From a virus, in the IMG/VR virus record IMGVR_UViG_3300035181_001045, positions 124,001 to 188,000 of that record: DNA of 64,000 nucleotides. One strand, written 5' to 3'. Below are positions 376 through 18,925 of the stretch, in pieces. Each line of letters opens with the position of its first letter. Position 1 is the stretch's first letter. A program made the translations under genes and the position numbers. A model generated the notes under the pieces. The model was not told the DNA's origin. It saw only the letters and a program-made list of their open reading frames with translations, and ran no database searches.

Positions 376-833
376 AGACTTGCAAGTCTTGTGGAGAGGG
401 GAAGCCTCTGGAGGCTTTCTACGCTCACCCTCGTACGAAATTGGGGGTTGGCGTCACCTGTAAGCAGTGCATCAGTGATAAAGGCCGTGGAACATACGAC
501 CCTCAAAAAGGACGCGATAGTTACCAGAGGCGCCGAACAAATATTCTAGTTCGGATGAAAAACACTCGGGATGCACGGAAACACGAATACATAACTCTCC
601 TCGGAGGGCGGTGTAGAGACTGTGGGATTGCCCCTGGTAGTGAGTGGCCTATTGACGTGTTCGATTTCCATCATCTTGGGGTAGAAGCCAAGGATATGGA
701 GATAGGTCCCATGCTTCTGAAAAAGAACCAAGAGCAAGTTCGAGCTGAGGTTCTGAAATGTGTTTTGCTGTGCGCAACCTGTCATCGACGCAGACACGCA
801 TGGCCAAGCTTCTCCCAACTGGAGTCTAAATGA
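372..833 (+). CDS. HNH endonuclease with N-terminal zinc ribbon
   Basis: About 153 residues. The N-terminus has a CKSCG...CKQC zinc knuckle (residues 3-35) and the C-terminal half a treble-clef HNH core: CRDCG, then DVFDFHH with the metal-binding histidines, then LCATCHRRRH. The GTG start overlaps the previous stop as GTGA, and its stop overlaps the RecA start as ATGA, so the gene is tightly inserted in the operon. Codon choice is less C-ending than in RecA next door, which suggests separate acquisition. Free-standing HNH genes of this kind in phages are usually homing-type nucleases that nick or cut DNA; a general recombination nuclease is also possible. It shares its zinc-ribbon style with the HNH gene at 29580. 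Confidence 0.7.
   Translation: MKTCKSCGEGKPLEAFYAHPRTKLGVGVTCKQCISDKGRGTYDPQKGRDSYQRRRTNILVRMKNTRDARKHEYITLLGGRCRDCGIAPGSEWPIDVFDFHHLGVEAKDMEIGPMLLKKNQEQVRAEVLKCVLLCATCHRRRHAWPSFSQLESK
375..390. repeat. 16-bp perfect palindrome at start of HNH gene
   Basis: AAGACTTGCAAGTCTT reads identically on both strands and begins immediately after the GTG start codon of the HNH gene, where it encodes the K-T-C-K-S-C zinc knuckle. It could be an operator or nuclease recognition site, but coding for the repeated K-x-C pattern partly explains it. Confidence 0.6.
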
Positions 834-2143
834 CGACTGCGACGACCACGAAAGACAAGAAGGCCAAGGCACATGTCACCAATGCATCGGCAGTGGCGAC
901 CCTTGCCAGGGCCATGATCCTCAAGACCACCAAGCAGCGGCCGATGACGGCCCAGCAAACGACCCTACCTCACGTTCCTTCGGGCTCGGTCATTCTCGAC
1001 ACGAGCATCGGTGGTTCGCGAACGGCAGATGGGAAGGGCTTCGTTTGCCCTGGCTACCCCCGGCGTCGCATCACGGAAATCTACGGTCCTGAGTCGAGTG
1101 GCAAGACGACGGTGGCTCTCACGGCCATCGCGAACGTCCAGAAGAACGGGGGGACGGCGATGTTCCTCGACTTCGAGCACGCTCTTCACCACGGCTACGC
1201 GAAGCAGATTGGGGTTCAGTTCGAAGACCTCCTTCTCTACGCTCCCGACACGATGGAAGATGGTTTCAAGATGATTCTCGTCGGCATCATGGCCGGCGTG
1301 GATATCATCGTCGTCGACTCGGTCGCCTCGATGGTTCCTGCTCTGGAGCTGGAGAAGAAGATCGAGGACACCGCCAAGATCGGTGCTGTGGCGAAGAAGA
1401 TGAGCGAGACCCTACCCAAGCTCGTCTTGTGGCTCGCCAAGTACCCGACGAAGGGAGCAGGGGAGAGCAAGATTTCCGACCCCGAGCGTCTCGGGACGGC
1501 ACTCATCCTGCTCAACCAGGAGCGAGCCACCATCAGCACGGGTGGGGGTCACGGTGCTCCGGAAGCCAACACGGCCGGTGGAAAGGCTCTCAAGTACTTC
1601 GCCTACGTTCGGCTGCGACTCGCTCGGATTCTCTCGGAGCGTGTCGAGCGGAAGGACCCCGCCACGGGGAAGATCAAGAAGTACCCCTTCGGCAACCTCA
1701 CCTCCGTGAAGGTCATCAAGGCAAAGGCCGACGCCAAGCAGGGACACGAAGCGACGATCTTCATTCGGTACGGCTTTGGAATCGACGACCTCTACAGCAT
1801 CATCATGGCAGCCGAGGCCAACGGGATCATCAAGCGCGAGGGCTCGAAGTACACCTGTGCAGGCGAGGCCTTCATGGGGAAGGACAAGCTGCGCGCGCAC
1901 TTGATCGCCAACCCCAAGCTGGCAGCGGAGATCAAGGGGAAGGTTGTCGAGGCCATCTCTTCGGCCATCCCGACGGCGATCCCTGACGAGGAGATCTCGG
2001 ATGAGGACGCGATGCAGGCGGACCTCAGTGGCGAGCTGGGGGACGATGATGACGATGCGTCTGGGGGGACGCAGGAAATCACGATCGACACTGACGATCC
2101 GATCGTGGAAGATTCGGCTGAGGACGAGTCCGACGGCGAATGA
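830..2143 (+). CDS. recA: RecA-family recombinase
   Basis: About 437 residues. A clear RecA core ATPase: Walker A GPESSGKTT at residues 86-94, Walker B VDIIVVDS with Asp near 163, and the LNQ segment (ILLNQERATI) followed by a TAGGKALKYFAYVRLRL stretch typical of the RecA L2/C-terminal core. The tail is strongly acidic (runs of D and E in the last 60 residues), as in bacterial RecA. RecA forms filaments on ssDNA and drives strand exchange; in a phage it supports recombination-dependent replication and repair. The start overlaps the HNH stop (ATGA), and the stop overlaps the next gene (ATGA), so it is cotranscribed with the SbcCD-like genes. It resembles cellular RecA more than T4 UvsX. Confidence 0.9.
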   Translation: MTTATTTKDKKAKAHVTNASAVATLARAMILKTTKQRPMTAQQTTLPHVPSGSVILDTSIGGSRTADGKGFVCPGYPRRRITEIYGPESSGKTTVALTAIANVQKNGGTAMFLDFEHALHHGYAKQIGVQFEDLLLYAPDTMEDGFKMILVGIMAGVDIIVVDSVASMVPALELEKKIEDTAKIGAVAKKMSETLPKLVLWLAKYPTKGAGESKISDPERLGTALILLNQERATISTGGGHGAPEANTAGGKALKYFAYVRLRLARILSERVERKDPATGKIKKYPFGNLTSVKVIKAKADAKQGHEATIFIRYGFGIDDLYSIIMAAEANGIIKREGSKYTCAGEAFMGKDKLRAHLIANPKLAAEIKGKVVEAISSAIPTAIPDEEISDEDAMQADLSGELGDDDDDASGGTQEITIDTDDPIVEDSAEDESDGE

Positions 2144-3363
2144 TCTCGGTCGAGGTCTGCAACTTTCAATCGATCGAGCGGGTTTCTTTCCAGATTGACG
2201 GCTTCACGGCTCTTGTGGGCCGGTCGAACATCGGAAAGAGCGCGCTCATTCGGGCGATTCGTTGTGCTCTCACTGGAGCGCCCGTGGCGTCATTCGTACG
2301 TCACGGGCCTTCTTGTGCCCGCAAGCTGAAGAAGCAGAAGACGTGCAAGTGCCACGTCTCCGTGCATCTCCAGTCTGCGGACTTCGATCTCCTTTGGGAG
2401 AAGGGCGATTCGATCAATCGCTACGTCTTCAATGGAGCGGAGTACCCCGCTGCCGAGCGTGGGATGCCGGACTTTCTGACCGCGGCTTTCAACGAGGTCA
2501 AGGTGGGGGATAGGAACGTCCTCCTACAAGTCTCCGATCAATTCAACCCCATCTTCCTGCTCGACCAATCCCCTGGGGTTGTCGCGGATGTCCTCTCGGA
2601 CATGGCCAAGCTCGATCAGGTCAATCTCGCCATGAGGATGGTCGAGAAGGACCGGAGGGAGGCAACAGCTACACGGAAGGTTCGGGAGAAGGACGTCATT
2701 GAGGCAACGACACAGCTCGCTGCGTACGAAGGGCTCGACACAGCCCTTCGCGACGTCAAGACCGTCAAGACGAAGTTGGGGGTTGTCCAGGCGACTCAAG
2801 CCAAGGTCACACAGCTCGACTACTTCATCGACGGTCGAGCTGCTCTCGAAGCTCGGGTCATGGGTCTTGAGGGTGTCGTTGCTCAAACACCCCCAAATCC
2901 TTCTGACCTACAGGAAGGCCAGAAGACCTTCGCTCTTCTCCAGAGGCTCTGTCTTCAGAACAACACCCGGAGGGCGGCCCTGGCTTCTCTCGACGGGGTG
3001 GACAAGATCGAGATCCCGAGTGTGACGGATCTTCGGACCTTCGCGGAGGTGACCTTCCAGCTCCTCGAAGGGTGGATCGCTCGCCTTCGGGGGTTCAAGG
3101 AGAGCATGGGCCGTCTCAAGGATGTGAGGACCCTTGAGGTGCCAGCCCTTGCCTCAGTCCGTGCGGCCTACGAGAAACACGAAGACCTGGTCGAGTTCGC
3201 GCGAGATTACGAGGTGACTCTTCGTAATCTCGCCACCTTTGAACGAGGATGCAGCCTCATCTATCTGGAGGAAGAGGCCCTCAATCGGGAGTGGGCTGAG
3301 CTGGGGGTCTGTTCGACATGTTCTCGTCCTTTTCATTCCGATTCTCACCCCGAACAGGTGTAG
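2140..3363 (+). CDS. Rad50/SbcC-like ATPase, N-terminal half only
   Basis: About 407 residues. It starts like the N-terminal ABC half of Rad50/SbcC: a short strand-rich lead, Walker A GRSNIGKS at 27-34, a Q-loop-like stretch (VSDQFNPIFLLD) and then about 200 residues of heptad-like helix. It ends at ELGVCSTCSRPF with Cys391 and Cys394, matching the CxxC zinc hook that lies at the tip of the Rad50 coiled coil. It has no signature motif or Walker B. Those are found in a separate gene at 6876-7535, so the enzyme appears divided into two polypeptides at the hook. The next gene is the Mre11/SbcD partner. The complex would process DNA ends and hairpins. The ATPase identity is secure; the split is inferred. 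Confidence 0.8.
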   Translation: MISVEVCNFQSIERVSFQIDGFTALVGRSNIGKSALIRAIRCALTGAPVASFVRHGPSCARKLKKQKTCKCHVSVHLQSADFDLLWEKGDSINRYVFNGAEYPAAERGMPDFLTAAFNEVKVGDRNVLLQVSDQFNPIFLLDQSPGVVADVLSDMAKLDQVNLAMRMVEKDRREATATRKVREKDVIEATTQLAAYEGLDTALRDVKTVKTKLGVVQATQAKVTQLDYFIDGRAALEARVMGLEGVVAQTPPNPSDLQEGQKTFALLQRLCLQNNTRRAALASLDGVDKIEIPSVTDLRTFAEVTFQLLEGWIARLRGFKESMGRLKDVRTLEVPALASVRAAYEKHEDLVEFARDYEVTLRNLATFERGCSLIYLEEEALNREWAELGVCSTCSRPFHSDSHPEQV

Positions 3364-3374
3364 AGTGAGTGTGG

Positions 3375-4355
3375 ATGTCTCGACTATCTTTCCTTTTTAG
3401 GACCGACACCCACGTAGCGGATCGGAGCCCGGCGTCGTGGAAAGCGGACTACCCGTCGGAGATTTGGTCGAATCTCGAACAGATCGGGCAGTTCGCGAAG
3501 CAGTTCGAGGTGACGGCTGTTCTTGACGGGGGAGACTTCTTCCACGTCAAGGCAGCAAGCCGGAATCCTCACGCTCTCGTTGAGAGGGCCGCTCGGATCC
3601 ATCAGGCCTACCCCTGTCCTGTGTGGTCTGTCGAAGGCAACCACGACATCGCCTACAACAACCTGGACACCCTGGCGAAGCAGCCTCTCGGCGTGCTCCT
3701 CGCAACGGGGGTCTTCCACCATCTTCGAGAGCAGGTCTTCGAAGATGGTGGGGTTCGAGTTCGGGTGGTGGGGGTTCCCTACAGCCCGCATCGAACCGTG
3801 GCGGAGCTGAAGAGGATCCAGAAGAAGCCGGGGGACGACTTCATCATAGCGGTTGTCCACGCCCTCGCAGCTCAAGAGCCCCCTCCCAATGTCGAGGGTT
3901 TCTTCGGGGAGCCAGTCTTCCGGTACGGCGACCTCGTGACTGAGAATGGTCCGGATGCTTGGTGCTTCGGGCACTGGCACAAGGACCAGGGCATCGTGAC
4001 CGTGGGGGGCAAGCAGTTCGTCAACCAAGGGGCTGTGAGCCGAGGTGCTCTCGTTCGAGAGAACACCTTGAGGACCCCCCAGGTGTCCCACATCGTGATT
4101 GAAAACGGTGTGCTTCGGGTCTGGCCTGTCCCCCTGATCGTTGCCCCGGCGGAGGATGTCTTCGACATCGAACGCAAGGAACGAGAAGAAGCCGAGGATA
4201 CGGCAATCGATGCCTTTGCAGCTCGTATCAAGGCCGACGCGATGTTCGACCCCTCTTTGGGGATTGAGGAATCGCTGAATAGTCTTGACTATGCCCGTGA
4301 TGTGCGTGATCTCGCACAAGGGTATTTGGAGCGAGCGCGGGCGGAGGTGGGCTGA
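3375..4355 (+). CDS. sbcD: Mre11/SbcD-like metallophosphoesterase nuclease
   Basis: 326 residues from ATG 3375; an in-frame GTG at 3369 is an alternative. All calcineurin-like phosphoesterase motifs are visible in order: DTH (11-13), GGDFFH (52-57), GNHD (88-91), VVHA near 160 and GHWH near 200. This matches Mre11/SbcD, the Mn-dependent exo/endonuclease that works with Rad50/SbcC to open hairpins and resect ends. It lies directly after the N-terminal Rad50 half and its stop overlaps the next nuclease gene by one base (TGATG), implying coupled translation. The C-terminal region after residue 250 is charged and may contact the ATPase. Confidence is high for the family. Confidence 0.85.
   Translation: MSRLSFLFRTDTHVADRSPASWKADYPSEIWSNLEQIGQFAKQFEVTAVLDGGDFFHVKAASRNPHALVERAARIHQAYPCPVWSVEGNHDIAYNNLDTLAKQPLGVLLATGVFHHLREQVFEDGGVRVRVVGVPYSPHRTVAELKRIQKKPGDDFIIAVVHALAAQEPPPNVEGFFGEPVFRYGDLVTENGPDAWCFGHWHKDQGIVTVGGKQFVNQGAVSRGALVRENTLRTPQVSHIVIENGVLRVWPVPLIVAPAEDVFDIERKEREEAEDTAIDAFAARIKADAMFDPSLGIEESLNSLDYARDVRDLAQGYLERARAEVG
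3716..3751. repeat. Perfect 12-bp inverted repeat inside SbcD-like gene
   Basis: CCACCATCTTCG at 3716-3727 pairs perfectly with CGAAGATGGTGG at 3740-3751 around a 12-base loop. It is one of several long perfect stem-loops embedded in coding sequence in this window. Confidence 0.7.
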
Positions 4356-5260
4356 TGTATCTGTCGTATTCTGGGTTCAAGTCGTACGATTCCTGTCCCA
4401 AGTCGTACTGGTATCGCTACGTGGGCAAGACCCCTCTCTCCGAGCCGGAGAACAAGGTCAACTCCCTCTACGGCAGCACAGTGGGCCGTCTGTTCGAGCT
4501 GTTCTACGTCAACCAGATTTGGAAACAGTCGAACACCATCGAGACTCTTTTGGGGATGGTCGAGCCCGAGCTGGACGACACCATTCAAAAAGAGCGGCGG
4601 AATGGGGTCATCGACTACACGGACAAGAGGTCGAACTACGCATCCCGTGACCTCCTTGTTGCGGACATCCGAGCGGCGATTCCCCGAGGAATTGCCATCA
4701 TCAGGCACCACCGGCTGATCGGTGCTGATGCAGCGGCAGAGGTCAAGTACGACACAATGATCGAGGGGCACACGATTGGGGGTCGTGCTGACTTCGTTCT
4801 ACGTCGAGTCGCCCCTCATCGAGACCTCGTTCTACTCGATGGGAAGGGGTCCCGTCATCGAGAGAAATACGTCGATGATCGCCAGCTCGTGTGGTACGCG
4901 ATGCTTCATCGAATTCGTCATGGATATCCCCCCGATCGTTTGGGGTTCGTCTTCTGGCGGTATGAGCCGGAGGAGAGCCTGGACTGGATCAACTTCACCG
5001 CGGCGGACCTCGATGGGCTCCTAGCCCATGTCCTCAACACGGTGCGGAAGATTGATGAGGGTATCAACACCTTCATCTCGGGGAGCAGGGAAGTTCAGAA
5101 AAAGGTGATGGAGGATGTGTTCCAGGCTCAACCTGGACAGGGCAAGTGCAAGCTCTGCTCCTACCTCGCGCTTTGCCCTGAAGGTCAGAGCTTCACAGCG
5201 AAACATCAGATCCCCGTCTACGCTGGAGAGGGTGTAGAAGACGTGGGCATCGGGGATTGA
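4355..5260 (+). CDS. PD-(D/E)XK nuclease with Fe-S cluster motif (Cas4/AddB-like)
   Basis: 301 residues. The nuclease core is visible as GGRADF (Asp146) followed by LVLLDGKG (Asp162, Lys164), the D...DxK arrangement of the RecB/Cas4 nuclease superfamily, then a QLVWYAML helix like the downstream QxxxY motif. One N-terminal cysteine (Cys14 in DSCPKSYW) and three C-terminal ones (Cys265, Cys268, Cys274) give the C...CxxCxxxxxC spacing of 4Fe-4S nucleases such as AddB and Cas4. Such enzymes degrade DNA ends, often 5' to 3', which would complement the adjacent Mre11-like nuclease in producing ssDNA for RecA. No helicase domain is fused. The start overlaps the SbcD stop. Confidence 0.8.
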   Translation: MYLSYSGFKSYDSCPKSYWYRYVGKTPLSEPENKVNSLYGSTVGRLFELFYVNQIWKQSNTIETLLGMVEPELDDTIQKERRNGVIDYTDKRSNYASRDLLVADIRAAIPRGIAIIRHHRLIGADAAAEVKYDTMIEGHTIGGRADFVLRRVAPHRDLVLLDGKGSRHREKYVDDRQLVWYAMLHRIRHGYPPDRLGFVFWRYEPEESLDWINFTAADLDGLLAHVLNTVRKIDEGINTFISGSREVQKKVMEDVFQAQPGQGKCKLCSYLALCPEGQSFTAKHQIPVYAGEGVEDVGIGD

Positions 5261-5270
5261 AAGGACACGT

Positions 5271-5543
5271 ATGACTCCGGACGAGATCAAGAAGAAGATC
5301 GACGACCTATCGAGGCGAACCGAAGTCGCCCAGAAGAAGAAGTCGCAGTACGAGGGGCAGCTCCAGAAGGTCAAGGAAGACCTCGCGGATCTGGTCACCG
5401 AAGTGAAGGCTGCGGGCTACGACCCCAAGAACCTCTCGGCGGAGAGGGACAAGGCGGAGGCAAGTCTCCTTCAGGAGATTGCCGAGTACGAGACCAAGTT
5501 GCTGGCCGTGGAGACTTCCTTGGCCGGCTACGACAAGAAGTAA
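5271..5543 (+). CDS. Small coiled-coil protein, unknown function
   Basis: 90 residues, almost entirely charged heptad-like helix (KKKIDDLSRRTEV..., LQKVKEDLADLV..., ASLLQEIAEYETKLL) broken near YDPKNL. A good AAGGA ribosome-binding site precedes the ATG. No enzymatic motif is present. It lies between two nuclease genes and the clamp-like gene, within the interval that separates the two Rad50 halves, so it might be an accessory of that complex or of the clamp. This is inference from position and shape only. Confidence 0.6.
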   Translation: MTPDEIKKKIDDLSRRTEVAQKKKSQYEGQLQKVKEDLADLVTEVKAAGYDPKNLSAERDKAEASLLQEIAEYETKLLAVETSLAGYDKK

Positions 5544-5565
5544 CGACTCTCCAAATGAGGATGGA

Positions 5566-6846
5566 ATGAAAATCACGCTCAAGCTCGCCGACCTGATCAA
5601 GGCCCTCGCAATCGTTTCGATCGTCCCTCCGCGTCCCCTGACCCCCGCGGGCGGGGCCGGCTACCTCTTCGTCATCCGAACGGGAGGCCTCTGCTCGATC
5701 TACTCCCGCGATGCTCTCCACGTCGCTCGCGCCACGATCTCCTGTGACGAGACGGACACCGAGGGATCCTTCATCTTCCCCTCGGAGTTCACGAGCGGCT
5801 TTCGCTTCCTTCGGGATGACGAGATCACGATCGAGTCCAAGGTGGAAGCGGACAACTTCACGGTCTCCTGGAGCACGAACTCGGGAGCTGGGGCCGATCG
5901 CGCGAGCTTCGACCCGAAGCTCATGGCCTCGTGTGATCGGGATCTCGCCGGAGCCAAGGATGAGCGGTCCTTCCCCGTGGGCCTATTCAAGGAGGCGATG
6001 ACGCTGGCCAAGCCCTTCCTCGGGAAGGCCGACGACACGCGGATCCCGGAGCACTTCAAGACGCTCCAGCTCTTCGACAAGTCCAAGCACGAGTGGGAGA
6101 AGGGCTCAGGGCACCTCTTCGCTGCGAACACCTTCCAGGCGTTCTGGTTCTACAGCGCTGCCTTCGTGGACAAGGGTTTCTCGATCCACGTCCAGCACAT
6201 GTCTTTCTTCACGAGCTTCCTCGCGAAGTCGGACGGGGAAGTGAAGCTCGTGACGGGCGACAACATGATCTTCGCCGTCGACTCCAAGGGGAACGCCCTT
6301 GGGTGGGCGAAGCACGAGGCCGTTCACGGGAAGTTCTCGTACTACTCGAAGACGATGGACAAGCTCATCCTTGGGCTCCCCAAGTCGCTGACGGTGGACG
6401 CCCTCCGCTTCATGCGCTCGGAGCTGGATTCCAAGGAAGACAAGATCACTCTGGTCGTCAACGAGTTCCGTGACGTCGAGGTGGGCGAGAAGGTGCAACG
6501 CCAGGCCACGATGCTCTTCCGGGTCGCGGAGACGAAGGGCAAGGCTCGGAGCTTCCCGCTCCCGGCTGTCGTCATCGACGGCTCCGAGGAGCAAGAGATC
6601 ACCTTCAACGTCAACATCGATCGGCTCATCGACCTCATCGACGGCGTGAAGGGCATGGACGTCCAGCTTCGGATCGCGGTCATCAAGGCCGACGACAAGT
6701 CCCCCAAGGAACGGGCCATGTTCCGCACCATCGACGAGTTCCTCATGGACGACAACGGCAAGGTGGTCGGGGACATCACGGCGGAGAACCGGCCGGAAGG
6801 GTCGCACGAGTGCCGCGTGACCCGGTACATGCCCTCGAAGGACTGA
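5566..6846 (+). CDS. Sliding-clamp-like protein (divergent DnaN/beta clamp candidate)
   Basis: 426 residues from ATG 5566, chosen because of the GAGG site just upstream; the frame extends further 5' but without sensible sequence. Features compatible with a DNA polymerase III beta-type clamp are the opening MKITLKLADLIKALAIV, repeated beta-rich segments (SIYSRDALHVARATI; EVKLVTGDNMIFAVDSKG; FNVNIDRLIDLIDGV) and an ending RVTRYMPSKD reminiscent of the yxMPmr terminus of beta clamps. A clamp loader (9894) and primase (8672) nearby support a replisome role. Sequence similarity is weak by eye, so this is a candidate; a phage single-strand-binding or unrelated beta protein is the alternative. Codon use is strongly C-ending, suggesting high expression. 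Confidence 0.5.
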   Translation: MKITLKLADLIKALAIVSIVPPRPLTPAGGAGYLFVIRTGGLCSIYSRDALHVARATISCDETDTEGSFIFPSEFTSGFRFLRDDEITIESKVEADNFTVSWSTNSGAGADRASFDPKLMASCDRDLAGAKDERSFPVGLFKEAMTLAKPFLGKADDTRIPEHFKTLQLFDKSKHEWEKGSGHLFAANTFQAFWFYSAAFVDKGFSIHVQHMSFFTSFLAKSDGEVKLVTGDNMIFAVDSKGNALGWAKHEAVHGKFSYYSKTMDKLILGLPKSLTVDALRFMRSELDSKEDKITLVVNEFRDVEVGEKVQRQATMLFRVAETKGKARSFPLPAVVIDGSEEQEITFNVNIDRLIDLIDGVKGMDVQLRIAVIKADDKSPKERAMFRTIDEFLMDDNGKVVGDITAENRPEGSHECRVTRYMPSKD

Positions 6847-8089: not shown

Positions 8090-8685
8090 GCTTCTCAATC
8101 CTGGAGCAAGTGCTGGTTGTCGACCGGCATCGGCAGAGGGCTTCGGGTAAGCAGGGGTTCTCTACCCCCTACCTGTGTGCTGCGAAGGTGAACCCCAGCT
8201 CGGTTCCCTTGGTGGTCACCAATGCCCGGGGTGGCTTCGTCGGCACACGGCCTTCCAAGGAGGGGGACGCCAGGTACGGCTTCTCCCCTCTCTCCGAGGA
8301 AGGGGACCCGGATGTGCTCGTCCTTGCTCTCTACCGGGATGTTCTGGATCTTTCGACTCGAAGCCAGTGGGGAAATCGGTGTAGCTCGGTCCCCGTGGCA
8401 GTTGAGCGTCTCCGAAGATCAGGACTCGAACCGAAGTCCCTCATCCTCTCGTCGTCCACCCTCAAGGAAGTCTGCGGGGAGAAGGCGGCATCTGTGAAGG
8501 GGGGGTTCGTGACGACCTTGGAGGGCGACCTCCGTGTCTTCGTGGCTGCTCTTCCTGATGGGGCAGCTCTCGTGCTTCCTTCACCGGAGAAGTTGGGGTT
8601 CTACACGCGAGTCCGCGATTACGTGGGGGTCATGATCCAGCGAGCCAACCAGACGATCATGGTGGTCGGCCGTGACCTGGCTTGA
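8086..8685 (+). CDS. Hypothetical protein
   Basis: 199 residues, ATG overlapping the preceding stop as ATGA, and overlapping the primase start by 14 bases. No known family is recognised. The sequence is mixed alpha/beta with an SLILSSSTLKEVCG stretch and a hydrophobic C-terminal segment (YVGVMIQRANQTIMVVG). The tight overlaps on both sides argue that it is a real gene translated as part of the replication operon. No catalytic motif could be picked out. Confidence 0.55.
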   Translation: MSFSILEQVLVVDRHRQRASGKQGFSTPYLCAAKVNPSSVPLVVTNARGGFVGTRPSKEGDARYGFSPLSEEGDPDVLVLALYRDVLDLSTRSQWGNRCSSVPVAVERLRRSGLEPKSLILSSSTLKEVCGEKAASVKGGFVTTLEGDLRVFVAALPDGAALVLPSPEKLGFYTRVRDYVGVMIQRANQTIMVVGRDLA

Positions 8686-9403
8686 CGAGTTCGTCGCTGA
8701 ATCTGAATCTGGAGCTGAGCTACCCGAGCGTGTTCGTGAGTCCTTGTGGGGACGCGGGGTCACTGACGAACAGATCAGTCAATTTCAAATTGGGTACGTT
8801 GACCGGGTTCTACCGGCAATCAACTACCCCCAAGACTTCGTGTCTTGGTCGGGGGATGGGGGGAAGCTCGACGATTGCTACGTCCTTCCGATTACGAACA
8901 CCATCGGCGAGATTCGAGGCCTCCAGTTTCGGCACGTCGATAGGGAGCGTGGGGGCTACATGGACTTCATCCTCGCGCAGGATGAGGCTGTGGGGTTCGG
9001 GCTCGCTCAGGCAATGCCCACAGTGTGGGAGACGGGGGAGATCCTTCTGGTCGAGGGTGGCTTCGATCTTCTACCCCTCCAGAGGTTCCTTCCTGGTATT
9101 GCTTCGACGCTGACTGCTCGGGTCACGGAGGGATTTGTTCGGATCCTACGACGTCTTGTACGTCGCGTGTGGATCGGATATGATATGGATTCCGCCGGAA
9201 ATAGGGCGTACGATAGGTTTCGCCAACAGTACGGCCGGGAATTCGATGTTCGTCGGGTAGTTTACCCCCGGGTCACTTTGGTTGGCGGCAAGCTGGTCAA
9301 GGATCCTGGAGACCTCTGGGAGGCCTGGGGAGATGCCCGACTTGGAGAGTACCTCCGATCTCATGTGAGGTCGGGTAGCCTGATGGAGTTTCCCTATGGG
9401 TAA
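8672..9403 (+). CDS. DnaG-type primase, TOPRIM catalytic part
   Basis: 243 residues starting at GTG 8672. It carries an N-terminal DnaG-like segment (RESLWGRGVTDEQISQFQIG, as in the helix after the zinc domain; YVLPITNTIGEIRGLQFR) and a TOPRIM domain: ILLVEGGFD with Glu128 and Asp132, then WIGYDMDSAGNRAY with Asp171 and Asp173 binding metal. This is the RNA-primer-making core. There is no N-terminal zinc-binding domain and no fused helicase, so it is shorter than bacterial DnaG (about 600 residues); the missing parts may be elsewhere in the genome. It fits with the clamp loader two genes downstream. Confidence 0.8.
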   Translation: MTWLDEFVAESESGAELPERVRESLWGRGVTDEQISQFQIGYVDRVLPAINYPQDFVSWSGDGGKLDDCYVLPITNTIGEIRGLQFRHVDRERGGYMDFILAQDEAVGFGLAQAMPTVWETGEILLVEGGFDLLPLQRFLPGIASTLTARVTEGFVRILRRLVRRVWIGYDMDSAGNRAYDRFRQQYGREFDVRRVVYPRVTLVGGKLVKDPGDLWEAWGDARLGEYLRSHVRSGSLMEFPYG

Positions 9404-9887
9404 GATTTACAGTGAGAGTGAGACGATCGCAACCATTGCGAAGAACCTGATCCCCGGGTATCACCCGGAGCTGGCCACCGCACGGTTGAAGTACGCCTTC
9501 GTGGACAAGGGCTCGACGAAGTCTGGCCGTCCCGTCCTCGGCAAGGCCCGAAAGCTATCGGGCATCTCGCAGTTCTTCATCGACTGCGACTTCATCATCG
9601 AGGTCGCCGAGGACACCTGGAATGAGCTGACGGAGAACAAGCGAACGGCGCTCGTCGATCACCTCCTGGAGCACTGCACGGGAGAGGAAGACGACAAGAC
9701 CGGGGACATGGTCTGGGTTCTCCGTACGCCGGATGTCGAGGAGTTCACCTCGATTCTCCGTCGGCACGGTGCCTGGAACGAGACCCTATCTGCGTTCGCG
9801 AGCGTCGCCAAGGCCATCGAGATCGAAGACATGGTGGACGATATCGTGATGTCGTCCTCTGAGGGGGAGTCCGCTACGGCGCACTGA
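9396..9887 (+). CDS. Putative phage metallopeptidase family protein with degraded HExxH
   Basis: 163 residues, overlapping the primase gene by 8 bases. The layout matches the 'putative phage metallopeptidase' family: ARLKYAFVDKG, GKARKLSG, then FFIDCDFIIEVAEDTW, LTENKRTALVDHLLEHC and a late DVEEFTSILRRHGAW. In that family the zinc site is normally DHELCHC, an HExxH. Here it reads H89-L-L-E92-H93, so the glutamate expected next to the first histidine is replaced by leucine. The zinc ligands could remain while catalysis is lost. Family assignment rests on motif order remembered from the family; the function of its members is not established. Confidence 0.6.
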   Translation: MGKIYSESETIATIAKNLIPGYHPELATARLKYAFVDKGSTKSGRPVLGKARKLSGISQFFIDCDFIIEVAEDTWNELTENKRTALVDHLLEHCTGEEDDKTGDMVWVLRTPDVEEFTSILRRHGAWNETLSAFASVAKAIEIEDMVDDIVMSSSEGESATAH

Positions 9888-9893
9888 AAACCT

Positions 9894-11354
9894 GTGTGGG
9901 ACACCAAGTACAGGCCCCGTAAGTTCTCGGACGTCCTCGGCCAGCGAGGCACTGTCCAGATCCTCCAGACACGCCTTCGTGACGGAACGGCCCTCAGCAA
10001 GAACTACATCTTCGCTGGGGGTCACGGTCAGGGGAAGACGACGCTTGCTCGGATCATGGCAAGGGCCATGCTCTGCCAGGCGATCGACTTGGCCAACCCT
10101 GAGCCTTGTAACGAGTGCGACAACTGCCTGTATATTCTCTCCGAAACCTCGCTCGCATTCGTCGAGCGAGATGCGGCGAGCTGCGGGACTGTCGACCACA
10201 TGCGAGCCCTCGTCGAGGAGCTGCCCTTCGCGGTCTATGGGGCCTCGAAGCGGATCCACCTCTTCGATGAGGCGCATCGCATGACCCGGGATGCACAGGA
10301 TGTTCTCCTCAAGCCTTTGGAGGAGAACAAGCTCGTCGGGATCTTCTGCACGACGGAAGTGGAGAAGATCCGGGCGACGATTCGGTCCCGGTGCGAAGAC
10401 TACGCCATTCGAAAGGTGACCCGAGAGGACATCCTCGGAAGGATGAAGTCCATCCTCACGGCGGAAGGGGTCTCCTTCGAGGATGACGCTGTGCTCACTG
10501 TCATCGACTACTCCGGGGGGCACGTTCGGGATGTCCTCAACCGGCTGGAGATGATCGGGCAAATGGGGGATGTCAATCTCGCCAATGTGCGGGAGTACCT
10601 CCGCCTCCCGCTCGTCTCGACGTACTACGAGATCATGCTCTCACTCGGGACTCCTCAGCGTGCGATCGAGTTGGTAGGACAGGCTTGTGAGCAGGTCTCT
10701 CCTCAAGATGTGGCTGATGGCCTCGCCGAAGCGGCCATGAATTCATACCGAATGGCGAACAACATGTTCGCTGACTTCGTCTACGTCGACCGCGCACTCG
10801 GTCAGAAGGTCTACGAAGCGTTCGGCGTGAACACCCTCAAGCTCTCGGAGTACTTCCTTCAGCGGAGGAACACCACAAGGGTGAATCTCTTCTGCGACAT
10901 CCTCAATCTGGCAGGGGGCATTCCTGCTCCGTCGGTCGCGGGGGTCCCCATGGCGGCTCCCATTCAGGTGGTCACGGCAGCTCCCGTTCAGGCTCCGGCT
11001 CCTGTTCAAGCTCCTGTGATCAGCTTGACGGTTGACCCTTCGATCACTCCCAGTGTGGTGGCCCCGGCTGGGTATATTCCGCCGGCAGTCCAGGTCTTGC
11101 CGGAAGTGAAGAAGCCGGAGAAGAAGCCCGACGGTACTCGATTCGATGGGGTGGGTCCCATTGGTTCTGGCGATGTCTGTGCCCTGACTGAGCTGGATCA
11201 CAAGGGCGTCCCTGTGAACAAAGCTCGGGGTCGCGATCACGTCCATGTCCCGGTTTCTTTTCCCCGACGTGGGGATCCGGCAGACGACCTTCGTATGTTG
11301 ACTCCGGATGAATGGCGGCGAGAGTTCGAGCGAACTTGGCCCAGCCGAGGATAG
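9894..11354 (+). CDS. dnaX: DNA polymerase III clamp-loader subunit (DnaX, gamma/tau-like)
   Basis: 486 residues from GTG 9894. Opens with KYRPRKFSDVLGQ, the standard DnaX N-terminus, then Walker A GGHGQGKTT (42-50), a four-cysteine zinc module (Cys60, Cys71, Cys74, Cys77), Walker B LFDEAH (122-127), sensor 1 (FCTTE) and the SRC arginine-finger motif. Residues beyond about 340 form a Pro/Ala/Val-rich linker and a short unique tail (LTPDEWRREFERTWPS), unlike the tau polymerase-binding domain. It loads the sliding clamp onto primed DNA. A phage carrying a bacterial-type DnaX with a beta-type clamp rather than T4 gp44/62 and gp45 is notable. Confidence 0.9.
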   Translation: MWDTKYRPRKFSDVLGQRGTVQILQTRLRDGTALSKNYIFAGGHGQGKTTLARIMARAMLCQAIDLANPEPCNECDNCLYILSETSLAFVERDAASCGTVDHMRALVEELPFAVYGASKRIHLFDEAHRMTRDAQDVLLKPLEENKLVGIFCTTEVEKIRATIRSRCEDYAIRKVTREDILGRMKSILTAEGVSFEDDAVLTVIDYSGGHVRDVLNRLEMIGQMGDVNLANVREYLRLPLVSTYYEIMLSLGTPQRAIELVGQACEQVSPQDVADGLAEAAMNSYRMANNMFADFVYVDRALGQKVYEAFGVNTLKLSEYFLQRRNTTRVNLFCDILNLAGGIPAPSVAGVPMAAPIQVVTAAPVQAPAPVQAPVISLTVDPSITPSVVAPAGYIPPAVQVLPEVKKPEKKPDGTRFDGVGPIGSGDVCALTELDHKGVPVNKARGRDHVHVPVSFPRRGDPADDLRMLTPDEWRREFERTWPSRG

Positions 11355-11357
11355 TCC

Positions 11358-13334
11358 ATGGCATCACGCCAAATCAAACCTGTCATTGACCCCGCAAAGC
11401 CGTCGGAGTGGGTTGCTCTTGAGCTTGGGCCCAAGGCGGATGGGGAAGATCCGGATCTCATCAAGCAGTCCATCCGGCACCATCTTCGAGATGCGGACGT
11501 GTTCATCCCCGCGTCCGTCACTCAGGTGGGTGGGGACAGGGTCATCAAGTACCTCCTCGAAGGGTACGCCTTCATTCGGCGGGCTCATGCCGAAGAGAAG
11601 TACTACCGGCTCGAAGGAAGCAAATACGTACAGGGGGTCATCAGCCACGTCGACCGGAGTCGTTTTCGGTCGACACGCAGAATCGCCTACGTTCCAGATC
11701 GGGATGTGCTCAAGCTTCGTCGTCAGATTGAAGCAGAAGAGAACCAGGGGATCGAGGTGGGGGACCTCGTGCTCATTCTCTCGGGGCCCTACCGGCTGGT
11801 CAAGGCGAAGGTCATCGAGGACATCCCGGAGAAGGATGAAGTCCAGGTCTACATTCAGCTCCGCTCAAAGGAGTCTCTCATCACCTTCCCCCGAGCTGGA
11901 CTCCGGCTTGTTGCGAAGGGGGAGAAGAGTTCTCTGACCTACCAGACCCGATGGATGACCCTTCAGCAATGGGGAGAGGCGGCTTTCCCTGTCATGCAGT
12001 GGTCTTCGGAGGGTTTTGACGGGCTCCTTGATGTATTGGCGTCCTACACAATGCTTGATGTGTGGACCACCAAGGAGCGAGCCCTTCTCGATCAAGACCT
12101 GGTTGCTGGTTACGCGCTCGACCTCGAACCCATCCGGTTGGAGCTGTTGTGGGGGGAGCACGCCAAGCTTTCAACGTGGATCTCGGTGGGGCAGAAGCAG
12201 GTGAACTTCCTTCGGGCGATGTCCTCGACTTCTTCCACGGAGCATCTGCTCCAGCTTGGTGAGGAGGTCCAACGTCTCTCTCGGTGGACTGCGGACGTCA
12301 ACCAGTTGGTGACGGTCGTCCGAGCCTTCAACACCACCCCCTCTCTCACCCCCATCGAATCTCGGTATCTCGAATTGGAGTGGCTCCAAGACATTCAGCT
12401 CCGGTTGAAGGCCTTGAGCGACAAGTTGACGGACATCGAAGACGATGTGGAAGACCCTGCAATGACCCAAAATCTCATCATCGACGGCAACAACCTCGCG
12501 GTCCGCTGTGGCCGGGCACCGGGACTCGACCAGCTCAAGGACAAGCAGGGGCGTCCTTCTGGGGTGGTGACGGGGTTCCTTCGGAGCCTGATATCTCTTC
12601 GCAAGAGGTTCCCCAAGGCCACCATCTACGTGTGCTGGGACTACTCCTCGCAGCGTCGGATGAGCGTCTTCCCCGGGTACAAGGCAGGGAGGATCCCCTT
12701 CGAGGGTCGCGATCAGATCGAATGGCTGAAGGCGGCCCTACCGTCTTTTGGGGTCGTCCAGGCCTACAACGAGGTGGAAGAGGCCGACGATGCCATCGCG
12801 ACTCTCGTCACGGGGCGCCTCAAGGAGGATGTGAACGTCATCCTCTCGAACGACCGGGATCTTCTCCAGCTCGTGACCGCAACGACGACTGTCCTCGCTC
12901 CTTCGAGTGGTCTTCGCCCCGAGAAGCTCTTCGATGTCGATGCCGTGAAGGAGGAATACGGGGTTCCTCCGGGCAAGATGGTCTACTTCCGGGCCATGTC
13001 GGGAGACAGCTCGGACAAGATTCCTGGTGTTTTCAGGCTCCAGGAGAAGACCATCGTGCATTTGATTCGTACATACGGATCCATTGATGGCGTTTTTTCA
13101 TCTTCTCTGCCAGAGTTGACAAAATCTCAGCAGGAGAAGATTCGTGCCTCGGAGGCACAGGTCAGGAAGAACGTGGGACTCATGGCCCTCGTCTCGAACC
13201 TGGATCTCACTTTCGTCCACCCGATGACGAACCCGGAGGCAGCCTCGAAGCACCTCCAAGATGTTGATGTGAAGGTCGAGCCGATGCTGACGGCGTTCTT
13301 CCGTCTGGCGGAGTCCTCTACGAATACAACGTAG
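11358..13334 (+). CDS. NusG-like domain fused to 5'-3' exonuclease (FEN/PIN) domain
   Basis: 658 residues. Residues 16-110 look like a NusG N-terminal (NGN) domain (EWVALELGPKADGED, LLEGYAFIR, YVQGVISH). Residues 131-188 look like its KOW domain (IEVGDLVLILSGPYRLVKAK, then a VQVYIQL strand). Residues 190-368 are a helical linker of unknown role. From 369 the protein is a FEN-like 5' nuclease: NLIIDGNNLA, VCWDYSSQRR, EVEEADDAIA, SNDRDLLQL and MSGDSSDKIPGV contain the usual acidic metal ligands and the H3TH start. An ATG at 12462 (codon 369), preceded by GGAAG and in an ATGA context like gene junctions here, could give a free exonuclease. Okazaki-primer removal is the family role of the C-terminal part. 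Confidence 0.75.
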   Translation: MASRQIKPVIDPAKPSEWVALELGPKADGEDPDLIKQSIRHHLRDADVFIPASVTQVGGDRVIKYLLEGYAFIRRAHAEEKYYRLEGSKYVQGVISHVDRSRFRSTRRIAYVPDRDVLKLRRQIEAEENQGIEVGDLVLILSGPYRLVKAKVIEDIPEKDEVQVYIQLRSKESLITFPRAGLRLVAKGEKSSLTYQTRWMTLQQWGEAAFPVMQWSSEGFDGLLDVLASYTMLDVWTTKERALLDQDLVAGYALDLEPIRLELLWGEHAKLSTWISVGQKQVNFLRAMSSTSSTEHLLQLGEEVQRLSRWTADVNQLVTVVRAFNTTPSLTPIESRYLELEWLQDIQLRLKALSDKLTDIEDDVEDPAMTQNLIIDGNNLAVRCGRAPGLDQLKDKQGRPSGVVTGFLRSLISLRKRFPKATIYVCWDYSSQRRMSVFPGYKAGRIPFEGRDQIEWLKAALPSFGVVQAYNEVEEADDAIATLVTGRLKEDVNVILSNDRDLLQLVTATTTVLAPSSGLRPEKLFDVDAVKEEYGVPPGKMVYFRAMSGDSSDKIPGVFRLQEKTIVHLIRTYGSIDGVFSSSLPELTKSQQEKIRASEAQVRKNVGLMALVSNLDLTFVHPMTNPEAASKHLQDVDVKVEPMLTAFFRLAESSTNTT

Positions 13335-13345
13335 GCGGAAGGAAA

Positions 13346-14056
13346 ATGATGTCGACTGGATACGTGATTTCGGTAGACCCGGCTACTTTGGCCAACCGCT
13401 TTCCTTCTGGTCGAGGGAACGAGGAGGAGGATCTCCTTCTCGATCGTCTCCAGGTTCTTGAGGATACGGCCGCGGGCCTCATTCAAGAAGAGGACGATGA
13501 CGACCCCATCGCAGAGTTCCTCTACTCGGGGGACTACGAAGATCGTCTGGCTCCGCTCCTAGATCGCATCCCCAAAAGGGAAGCCGATCTCATCTACCTC
13601 TACTACATTCAAAAGAAGCGTCAGGCGGATATCGCCGAGATCTTCGACGTCACCCAAGCTGCCATCTCCTATCGTCTTGATCGAGGTCTTCAGAGGATCA
13701 AGTTCCTCCTGTCAATCCCCCAAGTCACTGAGACCGAGCTTCGGCGGGACCTTCCCCTCATTCAAGATGGCCATCTCAAGCCTGCGTTCAAGGCTATCGA
13801 TGTGGACATTCTGGTGGGGATGTGGTCGACGACCTGTCAGAGCGAAGTGGCGATGCGACTTGGCTTGACCCAAGGTCGAGTCCGGCATCGGTTCTTCAAG
13901 GCGGTGAAGCTTCTTGGAGAGGCTTCGGGGAAGGATGGTCGCTTCCTTCGCTACCACAAGGTCTTCGCTGCCATCTCGAACAAGAAGTTCAACATCCTCC
14001 GTGAAGTGAAGCTCCCTCAGTGGGCGGATCGTGGAGGCGATGCTCTCGACGGGTAG
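13346..14056 (+). CDS. Sigma-factor-like regulator with two helix-turn-helix regions
   Basis: 236 residues; tandem ATG codons at 13346 and 13349 follow a GGAAGGAAAA site. Residues 64-122 resemble sigma-70 region 4 (LLDRIPKREADLIYLYYIQ, then QADIAEIFDVTQAAISYRLD, RGLQRIKFLL). A second HTH-like segment is at 152-192 (QSEVAMRLGLTQGRVRHRFF). An acidic patch (EEDDDDP) precedes region 4 and no region 2 is evident. It may be a reduced sigma factor for middle/late transcription or a region-4-type activator. It is the last gene before the structural module, where a late-gene switch would be expected. Its stop codon lies inside a large inverted repeat. Confidence 0.65.
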   Translation: MMSTGYVISVDPATLANRFPSGRGNEEEDLLLDRLQVLEDTAAGLIQEEDDDDPIAEFLYSGDYEDRLAPLLDRIPKREADLIYLYYIQKKRQADIAEIFDVTQAAISYRLDRGLQRIKFLLSIPQVTETELRRDLPLIQDGHLKPAFKAIDVDILVGMWSTTCQSEVAMRLGLTQGRVRHRFFKAVKLLGEASGKDGRFLRYHKVFAAISNKKFNILREVKLPQWADRGGDALDG

Positions 14057-15481: not shown

Positions 15482-16677
15482 GAGGATCCATGGTGGCGTA
15501 CAAGAAGACGTTGGCGGCTCTCGCAAAGACCGAGCGTATGAGGCTCGCGGCGGGTCCTGTATTGCCTCCTGACACATCCGGGGCCCCTCCGGGAGCCCCG
15601 CCTGGCGGGATGGCGCCCTCTCCTTTCGCGGACAATGCGAAGCGGACCATCCCGGCGAACTTCAAGTTCGACCCCCATTCGCTCAAGCCTCTTGCGCAGA
15701 CCCTCTGGGCCTTGTCGATCTCCCTTGGCCACACCTTGACGGCACACCGTCAGTTCGCCCGGGTGAAGTCTGCAACGGTGTCCCCGGATGGGATGTTGGG
15801 GGGCCGAGGCTATGTCATGGGGGTCAAGGACATTCGGCAGCGTCTCTACGAGGCGTCCGAAGCTCTGTCGGCCATCTGCGACACGATTCACGACGAGATC
15901 AACGCTCCCCACTGGAAGCCCCGGCTTGCCGAGCTGGAGAAGGATGAGGCGGACGACCTGAAGCGCCTGCTCACCGACGCCGAAGACAATCTCCAGAATC
16001 CCGAAGAGGAAGCTGAAGAGGACATGGCGGCTGTCGAGCACGGGGAAGGTGGGGGCAAGCCTCCCGGAGAAGGCAAGGATGTCTCCTGGAAGCCCGGAGG
16101 GGATGATCGTTTCGACAAGCAGGAACCTGCCTCTGCGGTTCCTGCCGGCGGTGACCAGGAGACTTTGCATAGAGGAGGCCCCAAGCCTCCGAGCAAAAAG
16201 CAGGCGTCTTCACGCTACTCCTACGACTACACGGGCGGCCCTGTGGCCGAATCGGGGATGCCTGACTCGGGTATGGACCTCACTCCGACCGATGCGAATG
16301 ACTACGGTTTGGGGTTCGGAGCACACGGTGACGGTATTGCCCAAAGGGGGCAACCCGGCGGGTCGGCTTCGACTTTGCCGCACCTGTCAGGGGGTTCGGA
16401 ACTCCCGAATGATGGGGAGGATGCAGTCGATCGGTCCGATTACTACCGGGGACCGAAGGGCAATGGGGTTGCTACAGGGCCCGTGTCGGAGTCCGAGCTT
16501 CCGTCTGCGGATGGCGGTCCTCCGACGGAGGACATCGACCTCCCCAACACCAGTCTTCGTGGGCAAGACCCCAGCAACCCCCATCCCAACTGGGATTCTC
16601 CGGTACACGAAACGTACATTCGCGACCCTTATCAGAGGCTCGACGATTCGATGATGAGGAGGGTTCCCCGTGGGTGA
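15478..16677 (+). CDS. Disordered hypothetical structural-region protein
   Basis: 399 residues from GTG 15478 (GTGA overlap); ATG 15490 is an alternative. Residues 30-60 are Pro/Gly-rich, residues 65-165 look helical (LKPLAQTLWALSISLGHTL, DIRQRLYEASEALSAICDTI) and the rest is low-complexity, rich in G, P, S, D and E. No enzymatic motif. A perfect 9-bp inverted repeat (16119-16127 with 16137-16145) lies in the disordered part. Position between BACON and terminase genes suggests a virion or assembly role, but this is only inference. Confidence 0.55.
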   Translation: MRGSMVAYKKTLAALAKTERMRLAAGPVLPPDTSGAPPGAPPGGMAPSPFADNAKRTIPANFKFDPHSLKPLAQTLWALSISLGHTLTAHRQFARVKSATVSPDGMLGGRGYVMGVKDIRQRLYEASEALSAICDTIHDEINAPHWKPRLAELEKDEADDLKRLLTDAEDNLQNPEEEAEEDMAAVEHGEGGGKPPGEGKDVSWKPGGDDRFDKQEPASAVPAGGDQETLHRGGPKPPSKKQASSRYSYDYTGGPVAESGMPDSGMDLTPTDANDYGLGFGAHGDGIAQRGQPGGSASTLPHLSGGSELPNDGEDAVDRSDYYRGPKGNGVATGPVSESELPSADGGPPTEDIDLPNTSLRGQDPSNPHPNWDSPVHETYIRDPYQRLDDSMMRRVPRG

Positions 16678-18925
16678 TCTTGGCGATCTCGGTTCATTTC
16701 TGAAGGATGGTTCTCTCGCAAATCTCGACTGGCTCAACGTCAATGAGTCGGACTACCGGGATCTCGACAACCTCCCCAAGCAGAACCTCGACGTGTCTCC
16801 TGACCTGGAGGCTCTCTGGGGGCATGACGGGTCGAATCCGACGAGCTTCGTCCCCAATCGTGGGGATGCTCCTCGAACGGTTGGCGATCTCAGCGCGCAA
16901 GGGAACTTGCGGGCGGGGCCGGAGGATGTCGTGAAGGTTGCTCGGCTCGCGCTGATGCAGTCGAGCGACACCCAGAAGTTCCGTGCGGCCCTTGTGGGAC
17001 GCTTTGACCAGAACACGCTTCGAGCGAATCGTGCGGTCATTGCTGGAGTCCTCGCCGAGCGGGGTCTTCTGGGCAAGCTCTACATCTCTGCCGAGGACTT
17101 CCCTGGTTGCCATCGCGGCTCCAAGAAGCCCATCGAGTTCGTCCGCAAATTCGCAGGGGATGCTCAGTTCGTCCTTGCGAAGCCTGCGTGCTCGGGCTGC
17201 ATTCATTCCCAGAAGAGCCCTGTGGGAGCTTCGCAGACCTGCTCTGTCTTCCACAAGGAGATCCAGATCGAGGTCCCGTACTCGGATGCTCTCGCGGCGG
17301 AAGTCGAGCAGATGCAGCGAGCAAAGGGGAAGGATATTCAGCACTTGGCTTCCGTTCCTCGTGAACGTGTGCGTCTTGCCATGCTGGCTCCGAACGTCCG
17401 TCTCGAAGGCCCGGCTCCTCAGCAGAAGCCTGTAGAGGCAACGGGCCGTCTTCTTCGTCCGATCGAAGAGACGCCTCAGCTCCAGCTTCCGGTGGACCTC
17501 ACCTACATCCGGGCAACGGCTCGGGAGACGGCGGCAAAGGCCTTTACCAAGGGCGGGCTCACGGTCGCGCAAGCCCAAGACACCTTCTTCGCAATCGCTC
17601 ACTCTCAAGATGAGAGCTTCCTCCTCAAGATGGCGGAGCGCATGGCCGATCTCGCAGATGTCGAGCTGGCTCCTCGTGTCTACCAGGGGATGGGAGAGCA
17701 GGCGAAACCTCAGCTCATCGACAGGACCGAAGCGGAAGCACAGCTCATCTCCGTCGCCAACCTCACGAAGAAGAGGGAGGCGGCCACCAAGATGATGCTG
17801 TCCACGGATCGAGCCCGGCCGGTTGTGGAGCTGCTTCGGAGGGAGATGCTCAAGGGTCGAACTGCGGAAGATGTGGCGAGCATCTTGAAGCAGTCCTTCC
17901 AATCGACGGACCTCCAGGCAACCAAGGACCACTGGGGTCCCATCTTCCGTGAGGCGGGTGTCTTTGGGGTGCTCTACGCCACACAGGAGAGCTTCGACGA
18001 TTGCCGAACTGGGCATGACTTCCTCGCGAAGCACAACCCTGGCATCAAGGTGATGGTCGCCGGCTCCAAGTGTGGTGGCTGTATCTACAACAAGATCGGT
18101 CGGTGCCTCCTGTACGGGAAGCCCTTGGTGGCGTCCGCGGAAGCGGTCCTCACCTGGGATACGGCAGAGCGCCAGCTCCAGGAGCACAAGGCATCGGGGC
18201 GTATTCAGCCGTGGGGGCCCCCGGCTTCGGAATGGGGTGCTTCTCCTCGGGAGGCTCTCCAGAAGATGCATCGGTCGGCTTCTCTGAAGAGCGGGGCCAC
18301 CTCGACACCTACTCGAATGGAGATTGTCAAGGCCTTCCACAGCCGGTCTCAGGCGGTACGGACCAGCGCGCTGGTCCGTCGCGACATCGTGAAGGTGGCC
18401 TCCCGCTTCATGAATGAGGGCCTCTACGGGAAGGACCTTCTCATGGCCCTCAAGGGGCGGTTCGATTCGCGGGACTTGGCGGCATCAGCGGAGGACTTGA
18501 GGCCGGTCATTGCGGAGCAGGGTCTCCAGGGGATCTACTTCGTCGACCCGAGCATCTACGACGATTACGGCAAGGGGTGCGATGAGGCCTCCCGGCTGCA
18601 TCGGGCTCGCCTGGTCGAGTATGTGAAGACCGGCTCACGCTGTGGGTCGTGTGTTCTTCAGACTCGTTCGGGCTTCTGCTCGAAGCTCAACAAGCCTCTG
18701 GTTGAGGAGCCGCCCTACTACGACAAGCTCGCTCAACAGCGGGAGATTATGGCTTCGGGAGCGGCGACCGAGATCCCGTTCAGCCAGATCATGAACAACG
18801 GTCAGTCGATGATGGTCGAGTACGAGATGCAGCACAGCGCGATGGACATCGACCTCAACCCTGTCACGACGGCGGCTGACGTCGATGTCGAGCTGGGGAC
18901 GGCCAACCAGGGGTTCAGGTTGTGA
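16670..18925 (+). CDS. Large protein with three cysteine-rich repeats
   Basis: 751 residues from GTG? at 16670 (coding GDLGDLGSFL), overlapping the previous gene. Three copies of one module are visible, near 16925-17325, 17815-18192 and 18370-18765. Each has a helix ending L..RFD or L.QSFQ, a segment ending GLxGxLY or GVYF-like, an acidic D-D-C or P-G-C, then C-x-x-C-I (CSGCIHSQ, CGGCIYNK, CGSCVLQT), a fourth Cys (TCSVFHK, RCLLYGK, FCSKLNK) and a PL/IEV ending. The conserved cysteines suggest one zinc site per module. I do not recognise the family. It sits before the terminase genes, so a virion or packaging-associated role is possible. Confidence 0.6.
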   Translation: MGDLGDLGSFLKDGSLANLDWLNVNESDYRDLDNLPKQNLDVSPDLEALWGHDGSNPTSFVPNRGDAPRTVGDLSAQGNLRAGPEDVVKVARLALMQSSDTQKFRAALVGRFDQNTLRANRAVIAGVLAERGLLGKLYISAEDFPGCHRGSKKPIEFVRKFAGDAQFVLAKPACSGCIHSQKSPVGASQTCSVFHKEIQIEVPYSDALAAEVEQMQRAKGKDIQHLASVPRERVRLAMLAPNVRLEGPAPQQKPVEATGRLLRPIEETPQLQLPVDLTYIRATARETAAKAFTKGGLTVAQAQDTFFAIAHSQDESFLLKMAERMADLADVELAPRVYQGMGEQAKPQLIDRTEAEAQLISVANLTKKREAATKMMLSTDRARPVVELLRREMLKGRTAEDVASILKQSFQSTDLQATKDHWGPIFREAGVFGVLYATQESFDDCRTGHDFLAKHNPGIKVMVAGSKCGGCIYNKIGRCLLYGKPLVASAEAVLTWDTAERQLQEHKASGRIQPWGPPASEWGASPREALQKMHRSASLKSGATSTPTRMEIVKAFHSRSQAVRTSALVRRDIVKVASRFMNEGLYGKDLLMALKGRFDSRDLAASAEDLRPVIAEQGLQGIYFVDPSIYDDYGKGCDEASRLHRARLVEYVKTGSRCGSCVLQTRSGFCSKLNKPLVEEPPYYDKLAQQREIMASGAATEIPFSQIMNNGQSMMVEYEMQHSAMDIDLNPVTTAADVDVELGTANQGFRL
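18358..18379. repeat. 22-bp perfect palindrome in coding sequence
   Basis: The 22 bases from 18358 to 18379 form a perfect palindrome without spacer, centred on GCG|CGC and beginning ACGGACCAG. It lies at the start of the third cysteine-rich repeat (codons for R-T-S-A-L-V-R). Confidence 0.8.

Follow-up and report, generated by a model that had tools for sequence, protein, structure and literature searches.

A NusG-type protein fused to a FEN-type 5' nuclease, with a conserved candidate internal start codon, in a group of large uncultured phages

The 64,000-nucleotide stretch of viral DNA analysed here (the window) carries a single gene in which a NusG-type factor is joined to a FEN-type 5' nuclease, and comparison with related phages established that this fusion is genuine, long maintained, and under purifying selection. 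The open frame runs without interruption on the plus strand from 11358 to 13334, encodes 658 aa, and is present in the whole 234,659-base IMG/VR virus record containing the window. Both halves come from known families; as far as the searched literature shows, what is new is their covalent combination, its conservation across a clade, and the built-in internal start. No published description of a NusG–FEN combination was found in a partial literature search, so this absence is weak evidence. A NusG-type factor covalently joined to a replication nuclease across a group of large uncultured phages offers a genetic handle on the sharing of one template by replication and transcription, and the natural series of NusG alone, NusG and FEN fused, and one apparently split form, together with a conserved gene order, makes the question testable. 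The gene, its parts, and its immediate neighbours are as follows.

11358..13334, plus strand: fused coding sequence (NGN-KOW, helical linker, FEN), 658 aa; uninterrupted frame, fused in about 20 relatives
11406..11741, plus strand: NGN domain, residues 17-128; NusG profile match 4.3e-10, Foldseek matches to NusG/Spt5, invariant GYAF at residues 69-72
11742..11918, plus strand: KOW domain, residues 129-187; phmmer matches to NusG/Spt5, beta-strand pattern in the model, Pfam KOW 0.018 (under the cut-off)
11922..12449, plus strand: helical linker, residues 189-364; alignment, long helices of low pLDDT, dN/dS 0.14
12449..12453, plus strand: GGAAG, a weak Shine-Dalgarno-like stretch 8 nt 5' of the internal ATG; pairing energy -3.3, ordinary for the gene
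12462..12464, plus strand: internal in-frame ATG (ATGA), candidate start of a 290-aa free FEN; ATG or GTG conserved near this place in 16/16 distinct fusions
12462..13331, plus strand: FEN-type 5' nuclease, with PF02739 at residues 373-535 and PF01367 at residues 536-619; Pfam, acidic residues, fold
9894..11354, plus strand: upstream neighbour, DnaX-like clamp loader; PHROG 5846 at 3.1e-52, conserved neighbour
13346..14056, plus strand: downstream neighbour, sigma-like factor (region 4); PF04545 at 2.5e-13, conserved neighbour

The N-terminal half is a divergent member of the NusG/Spt5 family, as profile and fold comparisons of greater sensitivity than Pfam show. Its Pfam scores lie under the curated cut-offs (KOW, 15.3 bits against 22.3; NusG, 12.5 against 22.2), and Pfam on its own would not have revealed it. 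With phmmer, the single sequence matched Thermotoga (T.) maritima NusG at 2.8e-5, and the family profile matched the same protein at 4.3e-10 with both domains covered; a further match was to PHROG 6386, annotated as "transcription antiterminator" (2e-4). The AlphaFold model of this half had a pLDDT of 83, its best PDB matches in Foldseek were NusG, Spt5, and RfaH chains, and the GYAF motif was invariant across 22 sequences. For the C-terminal half, both Pfam domains scored above their cut-offs (PF02739, 1.8e-27, 96.5 bits against 34.3; PF01367, 3e-13, 50.5 bits against 40), and the FEN of M. smegmatis (6c33) matched it structurally with a target TM of 0.79. Nine acidic residues (D376, D428, E475, D477, D478, D499, D501, D550, and D553) were invariant in the 17 sequences aligned and correspond to the expected metal ligands of the family; the half would be a structure-specific 5' nuclease. 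The sequence-only reading had proposed just such an NGN and KOW half and a FEN-type nuclease with its acidic motifs in one frame, and profiles, Foldseek, and relatives confirmed both the domain identities and the fusion. A C-terminal ILxxFF stretch resembles a PIP-like motif for clamp binding; it is not claimed as one, because in the alignment it coincides with the final element of the 5'-nuclease domain of Pol I, the normal end of the fold. N-terminal extensions were also sought on other phage FENs; the nuclease of Rhodococcus phage Finch proved to be an ordinary protein of ~310 aa.

Between the two halves of the window protein lie ~180 residues that were modelled as long helices with low confidence. 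Among the fusions, the alignment showed this linker to range from 90 to 180 aa and to be poorly conserved in sequence. Its dN/dS between the window and a 95% relative (L002) was 0.14, compared with 0.09 for the whole gene, indicating purifying selection.

When the same arrangement was sought in related phages, profile-guided searches found it on about 20 IMG/VR contigs of up to 437 kb, with identities of 38-100%. One of these, from another IMG/VR dataset (L001), was identical over the 13,974 bases fetched, while L002 has no indel in the gene and differs from the window at 142 of its 1974 nucleotides (dN/dS 0.09). Among 50,697 GenBank phage records, no locus covered 80% of the protein; the matches fell on the nuclease half, or on the NusG half in a single record, and no record of this collection held both halves in one place. 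In cellular genomes (one genome per species, 84,980 bacterial and archaeal species), the best 80 loci of a capped list matched the nuclease half only, and the fusion was not seen among them.

Toprim, metallopeptidase, DnaX, NusG, and sigma follow one another in a conserved order, apart from a few upstream genes that were not found at some NusG-only loci; DnaX ahead of NusG and sigma after it were found at all loci compared. In more distant large phages (LR745208, L029-L038), DnaX and sigma flank NusG alone, and a search of seven such NusG-only records detected no FEN. In the fused clade, FEN lies between NusG and sigma and is joined to NusG in 18 of 19 tree rows. The exception is a 406-kb contig (L006), in which the halves are separate genes overlapping at ATGA. 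It is the sister of the fused L016, with support of 97/97 in the NGN-KOW tree and 100/100 in the tree of NGN-KOW plus FEN, and its placement outside all fused forms was rejected (AU p 0.019), which disfavours the split as the ancestral state. Since L006 is nested inside the fused clade, its split represents either a later fission or a one-base error; it could be an error in a GGG run or real, and we give it little weight because it is a single record in which such an error is possible. Rather than related phages all encoding two separate proteins, nearly all relatives are thus fused, with the lone split record inside them. On these trees, the simplest history would be a single acquisition and fusion, with one later split.

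Judging from codon conservation, the gene most likely also yields a free nuclease from an internal start. An in-frame ATG is located 5-13 codons ahead of the first catalytic Asp-Gly of the nuclease in 14 of the 16 distinct fusions, and the remaining two have GTG at that place; elsewhere in the linker, a segment of equal size contains an ATG in about 3/16, which sets the expectation for this codon. When linker codons were dealt at random, the tail probability in subclade A came to 1e-7 with ATG only and 5e-10 with ATG or GTG, and in subclade B to 1e-10. These values err on the optimistic side, since the sequences share ancestry and the positions were picked after inspection. In three fusions (L040, L048, and L049), the internal start is the sole ATG of the linker. 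Within subclade A, the methionine is exchanged for GTG codons only while the residues around it vary, a pattern more in keeping with a start codon than with a structural residue. At the internal start of subclade A, pairing with the anti-Shine-Dalgarno sequence is enriched (mean -5.8, where the background of the gene is about -2.8; p 0.012), with neighbouring true starts at a mean of -4.6, and subclade B showed no such enrichment (p 0.34).

In the window itself, the ATG at 12462 does stand in an ATGA context with GGAAG 8 nt upstream (12449-12453), as first described from the letters. The further statement that this is exactly like the gene junctions of the genome holds in part: GGAAGG is found at the next gene too, but pairing at least as strong as the internal value of -3.3 occurs at 42% of the fusion gene's codons. 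The suggestion of two products from one gene gains support from the conservation of the internal start codon in 16/16 distinct fusions. Synonymous changes between the window and L002 leave a gap around the internal start, which was not used as evidence because comparable gaps occur elsewhere in the gene.

Ten larger records of the clade were searched for related functions. Each contains exactly one FEN, in the fused or the split form, one NGN-KOW, and a family-A DNA polymerase of its own (about 930-1000 aa) without a FEN-domain match. A phage-encoded RNA polymerase was considered as the NusG partner, and no beta or beta' subunit was recognised in these ten records with PF00623 and PF00562, a search that very diverged phage polymerases could escape. 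The window also encodes RecA-, SbcC-, and SbcD-like proteins, a clamp-like protein, a clamp loader, a sigma-like protein, a terminase, and a portal, which places the fusion gene in a tailed phage, within a cluster for replication-recombination and transcription.

Several other features of these loci were recorded. The RecA-like, SbcC-like, SbcD-like, and clamp-like genes form a cluster at 830-6843 of the window that recalls the recombination-replication region of T4. A PhageMetallopep protein (9396-9887; PF18894, 1.9e-29) separates the toprim protein from DnaX, and nearly all relatives with contigs extending that far keep it there. At 16670-18925, the window encodes a protein of 751 aa in which cysteine-containing segments recur; it has no PHROG match and is kept in the same position after sigma in most relatives that extend to it. 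In two NusG-only relatives (L034, 2971-6053; L008, 4221-6107), DnaX carries an apparent intein in the Walker B region (FDE|C...), and in L034 a separate 409-aa ORF (3737-4966) is nested in the DnaX gap. The DnaX of L015 (3285-5989) occupies two overlapping frames (3285-5390 and 5300-5989), reflecting a programmed frameshift, a mutation, or a sequence error. Finally, L007 has a repetitive 373-aa ORF (8363-9484) between sigma and the next conserved gene, composed of three similar segments and homing-endonuclease-like by eye.

Taken as a mechanism, we give a probability of about 0.5 to the reading that the fused form tethers the phage flap nuclease to the host RNA polymerase while the conserved internal start adds free nuclease. 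The NusG-type module, to judge from its family, would bind elongating host RNA polymerase, and the FEN module would be the nuclease of the phage replisome, clearing away RNA primers and 5' flaps as the phage replicates. The long helical linker would let the halves act as flexibly tethered modules, so that part of the FEN could ride the transcribing polymerase to where nicks, flaps, or R-loops form, structures that would arise when replication and transcription share one template. Initiation at the internal start of the same mRNA, which its conservation suggests is in actual use, would supply free FEN to process Okazaki fragments in the ordinary way. A nuclease tethered to RNA polymerase is plausible, and we infer that such tethering may matter for replication-transcription conflicts, R-loops, or replication-coupled late transcription. 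In favour of the reading as a whole are the presence of a sole FEN in the ten larger clade records, their family-A polymerases with no FEN-domain match, the negative search for beta and beta', the age of the fusion, its low dN/dS with no indel against L002, the conserved gene order, the conserved internal start codon with Shine-Dalgarno-like pairing enriched in subclade A, and the nine intact FEN acids; against it are the poorly conserved linker, the weak internal Shine-Dalgarno stretch in the window, the lack of enrichment in subclade B, and the KOW and NusG scores under the Pfam cut-offs. The split in L006, if real, shows that tethering is dispensable. A more demanding version is tentative and, in our view, rather unlikely: that the only flap nuclease is permanently tethered through NusG, which would physically couple primer, flap, or R-loop removal to transcription and perhaps link the polymerase to the clamp encoded nearby so that late transcription follows replication, with the internal start again providing free nuclease.

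A plainer account, which we take seriously while holding it to be less than evenly probable, is that the fusion is a matter of operonic convenience. The FEN would have been gained beside NusG and fused in frame, the halves would function independently, and the fusion would only set co-expression and ratio, with or without internal initiation and with no polymerase-linked nuclease function. The variable length and sequence of the linker and its low confidence in the model agree with this, as do the apparently separate genes of L006 and the sister phages, in which NusG works without FEN. What speaks against it is that the fusion has persisted in every member but one despite deep divergence, though a one-base indel could split it, and that the linker is itself under purifying selection. 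It is improbable that the fusion instead links RNA polymerase to the replication machinery (clamp, clamp loader, nicked DNA) and helps to start or sustain late genes. Genes for a clamp-like protein, a clamp loader, and a sigma-like factor are found nearby, and T4 provides a precedent, coupling late transcription to replication via the clamp gp45, gp33, and gp55 (PMC2988020); however, no clamp-binding motif can be claimed from the C-terminal ILxxFF, NusG is an elongation and not an initiation factor, and gene neighbourhood alone is weak evidence. A sequencing error of one base or a very recent fusion of two overlapping genes, raised in the sequence-only reading and favoured by the ATGA context and the split L006, has practically no probability left given the identical L001, the indel-free L002, about 20 fused homologues, the nesting of L006 inside the fused clade, and the origin of the fusion in the ancestor of a clade that has diverged at as many as ~60% of residues.

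Compared with known systems, the late-transcription system of T4 (gp33, gp55, gp45) likewise shows a phage linking the host RNA polymerase with replication proteins, and clamp-like, clamp-loader, and sigma-like genes lie near the present gene; the fusion is likened to it by purpose, and NusG is not gp33. The NusG/Spt5 family, including the RfaH-type paralogues, has NGN followed by KOW in the same order as the fusion and shares with it the GYxF motif, the fold, and the profile match, whereas the fusion adds a C-terminal linker and nuclease, and cellular NusG has PGY in the aligned motif where the fusion family has EGYAF or DGYAF. The NusG-only relatives (LR745208, L029-L038) carry a homologous NGN-KOW protein in the same place between DnaX and sigma; in contrast to the fusion, it is about 180-220 aa long, with FEN neither fused nor adjacent. 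With the FEN/5'-3' exonuclease family (Pol I 5'-nuclease domain, M. smegmatis FEN, T5 D15, E. coli ExoIX), the fusion has both Pfam domains, the nine acids, and the fold in common. The known relatives stand free or are attached to a DNA polymerase, while here the FEN forms the C-terminus of a NusG-type protein.
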